Positions 52,907-57,633 of a DNA stretch of 64,000 bases are shown one piece after another. This stretch comes from Spirobacillus cienkowskii (lineage in GTDB: Bacteria > Bdellovibrionota_B > Oligoflexia > Silvanigrellales > Silvanigrellaceae). The stretch lies in contig NZ_CP146516.1 in the NCBI RefSeq assembly GCF_037081835.1, positions 248,001-312,000 on the forward strand, read 5' to 3'. Every line of letters begins with the position of its first letter. The first letter of the stretch is position 1. The notes beneath the pieces were generated by a model. It was not told where the DNA came from. It saw only the letters and a list, made by a program, of their open reading frames with translations, and made no database searches. A program made the position numbers and the translations under genes.

Positions 52907-53698
52907 ATGAGTCTCGGTGTTGATTTAGAAAATTTATATTATCGTAGCAAATCTAGAATTAAAGATTTTGGCGAAGTATTTACTCCAGAAAAATATGTTG
53001 AAGATATGCTAAATCTTTTATCAAAAGATACAAATGATCTTTGGTTTGATGAGGAAACCGTTTTTTTTGAACCGTGTTGTGGTCATGGCAACATCGTTAT
53101 TTCAATTTACAAGCGGCGCCTAACCGCAATCTATAAAAAAGCTCTTTTTCAAGGTATTTGTGATGCCGCTTTTTATTCTGTAGCGAATTCTATTAATACT
53201 TTGTGGGCAATAGATATTGATTACAAAAATATAGAAAATTGTCGTTCTCGTGTACTTTCTGTAATTTTAGATTTTTTAAAAACACAATTGAAAGTTAATA
53301 ATGACTTTGATCTTTTAGCAAGAAAGAAAGATTTTTTTGCTCATATTCTTTCTGCCATAAAATGGCATATTAGCGAAAATGAAACTTTATCAGCGTTAAG
53401 CAATCCGCAAGATGCAAAAGCCAATGCCAATTTAACCAAAGCAGGGGCTAAATGGTTTGTTCAAAATGGGCATCATCAACTCAATTTTAATTTAACATGG
53501 GCAGCATTTTTTCACAGTTGCCAAGTAAACAAAACAATACCTTTAGAATACCAAAGATCACTTCGCTTTATTGAGGCTATTTTTTCTGCAAAAATTCGCG
53601 GTTTTGAGGATTTTGAGTTTGCTAAGTCTGTTATTGAGATGACTAAAACTCAACAACCAGTTCGTAAATTAAGTGAGACTCTTCCTGCAGGAGCCTAG
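52907..53698 (+). CDS. Adenine-specific DNA methyltransferase-like protein (subunit 1 of RM-like operon)
   Basis: The SAM motif I appears as FFEPCCGHGNI near residues 54-64, preceded by FGEVFTP, a typical start of N6-adenine MTases that follow a TaqI/Eco57I plan. LWAIDIDYKNIENC supplies the next strand. No NPPY catalytic motif is found. The C-terminal half is helical. ATG 52907 has GGAG six bases upstream. It ends in TAG directly before the ATG of the second MTase, in the same frame; a good GGAG ribosome site in its last codons shows that this is a true gene border. It probably acts as a cofactor-binding or specificity partner. Confidence 0.7.
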   Translation: MSLGVDLENLYYRSKSRIKDFGEVFTPEKYVEDMLNLLSKDTNDLWFDEETVFFEPCCGHGNIVISIYKRRLTAIYKKALFQGICDAAFYSVANSINTLWAIDIDYKNIENCRSRVLSVILDFLKTQLKVNNDFDLLARKKDFFAHILSAIKWHISENETLSALSNPQDAKANANLTKAGAKWFVQNGHHQLNFNLTWAAFFHSCQVNKTIPLEYQRSLRFIEAIFSAKIRGFEDFEFAKSVIEMTKTQQPVRKLSETLPAGA

Positions 53699-55162: not shown

Positions 55163-57633
55163 TGAGTACTGCTGACTTATTGTTGTTATACGCCTACACC
55201 ACCGAGGTATATAAAACCAAAGGCTGGATTAAGGTTGGTCAAACTAAAATTGGTGAGGATAGAATTTGGAATCAGTTTGGCACTTCTAACCCTGAAAATC
55301 CTGAGTACCAAATGATTGGTTTTCTGCCTGAGGGTGTTCAAGATCATCATGTTCGTGCGCAGCTTCTTAAGAGGGGCTATAAGTCTATTAAAAATGCTCC
55401 TGGAAAAGAATGGGTTGAGGCGCAAAACAACCAAGTTGATTTATTTAAAGATGTTCGCAAAGCATATAACGAAGTTGTTTATAGAACGTCTCGCTCAGAA
55501 CATTACAAACTTAGAAAAGAGCAAGAAGAAGCCATAGAAAAAGCTTGCAAATGGTTTAATAAAGAATACCCACCCGAAGTTATTGGAGCAGCAACCCATA
55601 AGAATCGATTTTTGATTAATGCTAAAATGAGGTTTGGCAAATGCTTTACCAGTATTCATTTGGCTAAAAAAATTAATGCTAGAAACACCTTAATAGTAAC
55701 TTATAAACCCGATGTGATTGGCGAATGGATTGATACTGTTAATGAGCAAGTTGATTTTAAAGAATGGACTGGTATTCGTGCAAAACCAAAATCAGACAGA
55801 CCTCTTGATCCAAGTTTAACAGAAAGCGGAGATTTTCCAAAAAACAGCGACTCAATAGTACTTTGTGTTTCTTTACAAGATTTGTGGATTGATGATGAAG
55901 GTAACACTAAAGCAAGGTTGCAAAAAATTCTAGAAATACATTGGGATTTAGTTATTTTTGATGAGGTTCATTACGGTAGTAGAACAGAACGAACTAAAAA
56001 TATTTTAGAAAAATTAAAGTTTACCCATAGGTTAGATTTATCTGGTACGCCATTTAGACTTATTGAGCAAGATGATTTTTCTTCGCAACAAGTTTACACG
56101 TACAGTTATTTGGATGAACAAAAAAATAAAAAAGCAGAAATTGCTAATGACCCGTTAGAAACCGGAGAAAAAATTTATCGCCAATTACCCGATCTTAATA
56201 TTTCTACAATTGAGATTACAGACGAAGACATTGCCGAGCAAAGAGACACTTTTAAAACTGATGATATTGATTTTTCATTAAATCGATTATTTGAAACAAA
56301 TGAAGAAGGTCAATTTGTTTACGAGCAAGCCGTTGATCATTTTATTGATGGACTAACTATAGTGGGACATGAAGCAAGAGCAATTAGCATATTTGGACAA
56401 CTTGCTATTCAGCTAGGATGTCCTCCTAAGCGGCATTCAGTTTGGTGGATAAGTCGGGTTGACTCAATTAAAGCTCTCATGAAAAAATTAGAAAAAAATC
56501 CTTATTTTTGTAACTTTATTTTAATTAATGCTTCGGGGAGCGATTCGCAAAAAAGTGATAACGATGAAAAAATTATAGCTAAAGAAAAATCTTCAGTTCA
56601 AAATGCTATTGCGAAAGCAAATACAGATCCAACAAAATTAGGTACAATTACGTTTACTTGTGGACGATTTTTAACTGGTGTGACAATTAAGGAGTGGGAT
56701 AGCATTCTTATTTTAAATGATATTCAATCTGCTGAGTCTTATTATCAGGCAATTTTTAGAGTGCAGTCTACTTATATAAACGAAAAAACTAAGCAAATTT
56801 TAAAACCCAAAGCATGGGTATTTGATTTTGCAATTTCGCGCTGTCTTCAAGTGACTTATGATTGTGCTAGCAATATTGCAGATCAAATTGATCAGCAAGA
56901 AAGTTTTGATCAGAAGGTTGATATCAATAAAAATAATTTAGAAATAATAACAGAAGGGCTTTGTGATACATTAGATATTAAAAGGTTTTATGAGGGCAGT
57001 CTTGTATGCATACCTACGACAGCGCAGGATATATTTGAAGTTCTCAATCATGAAGGTTCTCGCATTGCGCTTGCGCGTAGAATTACATCAAATATTTTAG
57101 TGAACTTTGGTAAATTAAAACTTTTAGAAGAATTTCCCCATATACTCGAAATTCTTCTAAAAGTTAAAGGTTATAGAACTCAAGAAGTTGGCAGTATTAC
57201 AGCCGAAGCGTTAGTGCAAATTGGTATAGACGCATCAATACTTGAAGACGTTAAAGCGGATCCTAATCTCACTCAAGAACAAAAAGAAAAAATTTTTGAA
57301 GATTTTTCTCAAAAGGATGAAGATAAAGACAGGCAATCAAGAAAAAAGTGGTATGCTACTCAAATTAAACGTCTTGCAATTTGTATGGCAGATTTTATTT
57401 ATATGACTTATGAGCGAGAATATAATATTGATGATGTGATTCATACTAAATCTCCTGAATTCTTTGAAGTCATGACTGGAATTTCTAAGGACGACTTTAC
57501 AGAGCTTTGTGATAAAGGGTTTATGAATCGCTTTGCATTAAATCGTATTGTTCGTGAGTTTAGAGATCAAGAAAATACCTCATTAGATCCAGAAATCTAT
57601 ATTTTAGAAAATCTTAAAAAAATGGTTTCTTAA
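55162..57633 (+). CDS. GIY-YIG (T5orf172-like) nuclease-DEAH helicase, restriction-type
   Basis: Residues 1-90 resemble a GIY-YIG/T5orf172 domain: LYAYTTEV in place of GIY, IKVGQT in place of YIG, an Arg in EDRIW, and a Glu in GKEWVEAQ. A superfamily 2 helicase follows: motif I AKMRFGKCFTS (no canonical GKT), DEVHYGS (motif II), LDLSGTPFR (motif III), GRFLTGVTIKEWD (V) and YQAIFRVQS (VI). The C-terminal 250 residues are helical. ATG 55162 overlaps the methylase stop, with GGAG eight bases upstream. Probably the ATP-dependent restriction component. The divergent Walker A could lower ATPase activity. Confidence 0.8.
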   Translation: MSTADLLLLYAYTTEVYKTKGWIKVGQTKIGEDRIWNQFGTSNPENPEYQMIGFLPEGVQDHHVRAQLLKRGYKSIKNAPGKEWVEAQNNQVDLFKDVRKAYNEVVYRTSRSEHYKLRKEQEEAIEKACKWFNKEYPPEVIGAATHKNRFLINAKMRFGKCFTSIHLAKKINARNTLIVTYKPDVIGEWIDTVNEQVDFKEWTGIRAKPKSDRPLDPSLTESGDFPKNSDSIVLCVSLQDLWIDDEGNTKARLQKILEIHWDLVIFDEVHYGSRTERTKNILEKLKFTHRLDLSGTPFRLIEQDDFSSQQVYTYSYLDEQKNKKAEIANDPLETGEKIYRQLPDLNISTIEITDEDIAEQRDTFKTDDIDFSLNRLFETNEEGQFVYEQAVDHFIDGLTIVGHEARAISIFGQLAIQLGCPPKRHSVWWISRVDSIKALMKKLEKNPYFCNFILINASGSDSQKSDNDEKIIAKEKSSVQNAIAKANTDPTKLGTITFTCGRFLTGVTIKEWDSILILNDIQSAESYYQAIFRVQSTYINEKTKQILKPKAWVFDFAISRCLQVTYDCASNIADQIDQQESFDQKVDINKNNLEIITEGLCDTLDIKRFYEGSLVCIPTTAQDIFEVLNHEGSRIALARRITSNILVNFGKLKLLEEFPHILEILLKVKGYRTQEVGSITAEALVQIGIDASILEDVKADPNLTQEQKEKIFEDFSQKDEDKDRQSRKKWYATQIKRLAICMADFIYMTYEREYNIDDVIHTKSPEFFEVMTGISKDDFTELCDKGFMNRFALNRIVREFRDQENTSLDPEIYILENLKKMVS

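Follow-up and report, generated by a model that had tools for sequence, protein, structure and literature searches.

A table in PMC6430315 gives, for the plasmid pDrdVI of Deinococcus wulumuqiensis 479, a sole restriction-modification (R-M) system, M1-2.DrdVI, which is of Type IIG and is assigned the motif GCAGCC with N6-methyladenine (m6A), and the same paper reports that the DrdVI methylase genes were cloned and expressed in E. coli ER2796. Because that table names no other system on the plasmid, the three pDrdVI genes considered below are taken to be DrdVI. In the literature, DrdVI is described as a translocase fused to an endonuclease, and the term "split methylase" is used for a family; M1-M2.MaeIV of the archaeon Methanococcus aeolicus (GCACY) is there called a DrdVI-like split methylase, with mention of M1 and M2 alone. 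The subject of this report is a three-gene operon of Spirobacillus cienkowskii, at positions 52907-57633 of a 64,000-nucleotide stretch of its genome (contig NZ_CP146516.1, positions 248,001 to 312,000), the whole of which is called the window. We consider it probable that this operon is a DrdVI-type split Type IIG R-M system, and ask how its methylase might be divided among its parts.

The three genes are intact, lie on the + strand in the order M1-M2-R without gaps, and are tightly coupled; the initial annotation had noted this coupling. M1 (52907-53698) starts with the ATG at 52907, directly preceded by a Shine-Dalgarno sequence, GGAG; the ATG of M2 (53699-55162) begins directly after the TAG of M1, in the same frame; and R (55162-57633) likely starts at the ATG at 55162, which overlaps the M2 stop codon (TAATG), with GTG 55153 as an alternative. 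Each protein is homologous to its DrdVI counterpart: M1 with 37% identity over 115 amino acids (E 4e-21), the whole of M2 with 26% (E 3e-46), and R with 27% over 868 aligned positions (E 1e-71). As in DrdVI, M1 carries a motif for S-adenosylmethionine (SAM), M2 carries NPPY and a recognition region, and R joins a GIY-YIG-type nuclease to a superfamily 2 (SF2) motor with identical invariant residues; the two differ in the N-terminus of M2 (GRDQP here, DEVFTPP in DrdVI) and in Walker A (GKC here, GKT in DrdVI).

The operon was rightly read as a two-protein methylase with an ATP-driven nuclease, in a layout that differs from those of classical Types I, II, and III. The suspicion of a little-described restriction family is correct in that the kind is thinly described, but an undescribed family was rejected, given the pDrdVI match and three papers naming DrdVI-like split systems; assignment to a described R-M system, here with homology of all three proteins, is the outcome that the initial annotation had itself named as speaking against its reading. 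The operon proteins match only the PADLOC models MTase_II and REase_MTase_IIG, and among the proteins tested, namely these three and some neighbors, no match supported BREX or DISARM, in which the methylase would have PglZ/BrxC or DrmA/DrmB companions.

Three other described arrangements share parts of this design. Type ISP enzymes such as LlaBIII and LlaGI, each one polypeptide with an Mrr-type nuclease, also couple an ATP motor to an adenine methylase, but have no M1 gene. OspHL35III-type systems likewise combine an adenine methylase, a translocase, and a GIY-YIG nuclease, but their methylase is an MmeI-like single chain and their nuclease and translocase are on separate proteins. The fused forms on Enterococcus and Pediococcus plasmids (PADLOC PDLC03626) have the GIY-YIG-motor and M2 modules and a separate M1-type gene upstream, but carry R and M2 in one chain of about 1400 amino acids; in the Pediococcus form the upstream SAM-half gene is of another type than M1.

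The methylase motifs are distributed over the two proteins in a consistent manner. M1 is a SAM-binding half-methyltransferase subunit with VFTP, motif I (FEPCCGHGN), and motif II (WAIDID), as well as a match to the Alw26 methyltransferase model (E 2e-5), and it lacks NPPY, as had been noted from the sequence. The second protein had been credited with both motifs. Its NPPY is confirmed, together with a Pfam Eco57I match (E 3.5e-17), but its supposed SAM motif, DPFCKAGE, is noncanonical, with lysine in place of the first glycine of GxG and without the motif II acid; the normal motif is that of M1. M2 can be divided into an N-terminal half, M2N (about amino acids 1-129; 53699-54085), in which both SAM determinants are lost (DPFCKAG and FGLAPD), and a C-terminal half, M2C (about amino acids 160-487; 54176-55162), with the catalytic motif IV NPPY and the target-recognition region, the most variable segment of M2. 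Among relatives, all 75 distinct M1 sequences have a canonical motif I, and the motif II acid is present in 68 of the 69 that are readable at that position. The lysine replaces the first glycine in 55 of 58 M2 N-halves, and no readable one has the motif II acid. NPPY is present in 58/58 M2 sequences and in no stand-alone M1, occurring among M1 sequences only in two natural fusions. The M1 and M2 families match each other in hhalign with 95.9% probability over 75 columns, so that M2N is homologous to M1; the M1/M2 alignment uses trimmed rows, as an earlier joint alignment had set distant M2 N-halves onto M1.

The presence of M2N follows that of R. It was found in all 61 R-positive loci that could be judged and in 1 of 11 R-less loci, namely L029, which has only 2.1 kb of downstream sequence; the resulting 61/1/0/10 table excludes L026, cut at a contig end, and counts loci regardless of relatedness. 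In two viral contigs (L077, L119) a single chain joins M1 directly to M2C without M2N, and in L061 M1 and M2C are neighboring genes, again without M2N. In four further R-less single-chain methylases, whose catalytic half is of the M2C type, a motif I of the glycine type is present in cis and KxG is absent. M2N fused to the end of R, with M2C as a separate gene, is found in L190-L193 and L206. Because of the motif distribution, the association of M2N with R, and the natural M1-M2C chains that lack M2N, we propose a composite adenine-methyltransferase active site, with the SAM pocket from M1 and NPPY from M2C, and M2N as a SAM-dead M1 homologue serving as the link between methylase and nuclease-motor; this part of our reading we judge as apt to be right as wrong. 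The division of labor between M1 and the M2 halves seems undescribed in the literature searched. Other arrangements of the halves were also observed: in three viral proteins (L126:4942-6360, L134:4927-6378, L153:5035-6321) an M2-C-like half precedes an M1-like half, and in three loci (L007:2182-3108, L206:4976-5725, L197:5817-6914) the M1 position is taken by another SAM-half-like protein with the motif ITCGEAPY.

In the mechanism that we infer for an active S. cienkowskii copy, M1 and M2 would act together as an m6A methyltransferase and modify a short asymmetric target motif on one of its strands; the SAM pocket would come from M1, and the catalytic loop with NPPY, like the recognition domain, from M2C. 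R would bind this methylase, translocate with ATP from unmethylated sites, much like Type ISP enzymes, and cleave unmethylated foreign DNA by means of its GIY-YIG domain, while M2N would probably dock R.

R consists of an N-terminal T5orf172/GIY-YIG-like nuclease (about amino acids 10-100), an SF2 motor (about amino acids 115-600), and a C-terminal helical region. The joining of such a domain to a helicase had been recognized earlier, and the follow-up bears it out. The motor matches Pfam ResIII (E 1.4e-14) and has the motifs FGKCF (Walker A), DEVH, and SGTPF; the GIY-YIG domain does not reach the threshold in the window R, but 19 of the 32 relatives in the alignment give a T5orf172 match, with a best E of 1e-10. 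Y13, K27, G29, R37, D64, and E86, like residues of the motor, are invariant in these 32 proteins, the window R among them, and by analogy with the GIY-YIG superfamily the six would have catalytic roles. The structure model of the nuclease region has a strand-strand-helix-strand-helix order, with the predicted local distance difference test score (pLDDT) mostly 84-93. The Walker A sequence, earlier called unusual, is indeed present, and GKT stands at this site in 48 of 75 distinct R proteins; it is no oddity of this copy, as GKC occurs throughout the window's clade (15 loci and one outlier), and FGKCF as a lesion was rejected for this reason. Two phage-borne R proteins of about 960-974 amino acids (L009, L010) have an additional C-terminal segment of about 100 amino acids, and some of the aligned R proteins have weak matches to CarD or PcrA-tudor.

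The profile searches of each protein and the neighborhood comparison that had been suggested as checks gave the Eco57I and ResIII matches and an M1-M2-R order that is kept in dozens of loci in bacteria, plasmids, and phages, and because of this recurrence the arrangement is far beyond chance. By tblastn, it is present on pDrdVI and on plasmids of Legionella adelaidensis (R 63%), Sphingopyxis, Variovorax, and Mycolicibacterium. Since R was found in just two of the 15 genomes searched within the host order, both of them S. cienkowskii, while R proteins 79-81% identical to that of the window occur in Nitrosomonas, Nitrospira, and Oligoflexia assemblies, the sequences point to a horizontal gain of the operon. 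Natural exchange of specificity on a fixed motor-nuclease is suggested by pairs with near-identical R and a diverged recognition half: between Nitrosomonas eutropha (L014) and an Oligoflexia assembly (L024), R is 94-98% and M2N 90% identical, against 38-49% for the recognition segments. The second S. cienkowskii genome, a metagenome assembly, has an R about 97% identical to that of the window; of the methylase genes only the end of M2 was found in it and no M1, the contig ending there. Its DNA is 98.8% identical from window position 55091 onward, and its M2 tail overall about 50%; as the contig starts 221 bases upstream of 55091, this divergence of the tail is suggestive only. In a Methylomonas assembly, a natural in-frame deletion fuses M2 to the end of R (L027:5170-6333).

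The composite site has to be weighed against the possibility that M2, comprising M2N and M2C, is a complete and self-sufficient methyltransferase and M1 a pseudo-subunit with a regulatory role, like METTL14 in its pairing with METTL3, with the rest of the scheme unchanged. For the structural comparison, M1, the intervening TAG, and M2 were modeled by AF2 as one chain, a modeling device that claims no readthrough (mean pLDDT 86.7, predicted template modeling score 0.63). Several points tell against our reading. In Foldseek, this model aligns with M.TaqI over 481 columns, which is consistent with M2 alone folding as M2N plus M2C, and also matches CamA, LlaBIII, and LlaGI; the model does not place M1, is neutral to mildly contrary on the composite site, and does not decide. 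M.TaqI itself lacks the first glycine of motif I, and for this reason the lysine of M2N alone is no proof of a dead SAM pocket. The table of M2N and R is uncorrected for kinship, and a number of its R-less loci are close to the end of a contig; as for the assignment, identity to DrdVI is just 26-37%, and the S. cienkowskii copy is known from sequence alone. A self-sufficient M2 draws on the likeness of M2 alone to M.TaqI and CamA, on the tolerance of the M.TaqI motif I for loss of this glycine, and on the fact that most systems have kept M2N and M2C in one chain. It accounts poorly for the loss of both SAM determinants in M2N with both kept in M1, and for natural methylases that drop M2N and keep M1, not the reverse, and we hold it to be doubtful.

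A Type ISP enzyme of the LlaGI/LlaBIII family, its single chain split into three genes, is an unlikely alternative, even though the best PDB fold matches of the whole R are two LlaBIII chains (E 4.7e-12), followed by Swi2/Snf2 motors, so that the motor fold is that of Type ISP; the M1-M2 model matches LlaBIII and LlaGI, and R-M2 single chains exist in Enterococcus and Pediococcus. The operon has three genes instead of one polypeptide, an additional M1 gene, and a T5orf172/GIY-YIG-like N-terminus where a PD-(D/E)XK nuclease of the Mrr type would be expected. Single-protein sequence searches of PDB gave nothing useful, and because the R profile has no PDB sequence match at E 0.001, a common origin of R with Type ISP would be remote at best. 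Still less likely is that the operon has decayed, or is left with methylation alone, and has lost restriction, an idea encouraged by the sequence-only status of this copy and by the second S. cienkowskii genome, in which R and the end of M2 lack an M1, although the contig ends there. The three frames are intact and coupled, every residue that is invariant in the R alignment is present in the window R, and the R proteins of the two strains share about 97% identity.

The source genome is one contig of 2,806,830 bases, and for the published S. cienkowskii genome, complete at 2.81 Mbp, PMC12321486 describes SoFic and Gabija alongside four R-M systems, as well as Oxford Nanopore R10.4.1 data. The SoFic gene, the sole strong PADLOC match among the neighbors tested (E 5.7e-117), is at 49574-50740 (+), about 2 kb upstream of the operon. 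Outside the window, about 10 kb downstream of the operon, an HsdM-like N6_Mtase gene occupies contig positions 315372-316334 (-), and because of it the region may be a defense island. Scans for promoters and terminators gave sites no commoner than in shuffled sequence. At 50955-52495 (-), behind a transposase-family gene of the PD-(D/E)XK (Rpn-type) kind, its 3' part recurs in two tandem copies, both truncated and each ending in a C-terminal tail of its own; the direct repeats, of 300 nt, are at 51088, 51407, and 51762.

The DrdVI-like family is widespread on plasmids, phages, and chromosomes, yet only a few sentences on it were found in papers. The S. cienkowskii operon is a further member of this described and thinly studied kind, and its division of labor between M1 and the halves of M2 is worth following. 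The window copy is a complete gene set, and the pattern of modules makes the term "split methylase" testable, in that one can ask which half binds SAM and what role the spare half has. If true, a composite site with coupling through M2N would explain both why the methylase is split and why M2N is lost from the single-chain M1-M2C methylases.
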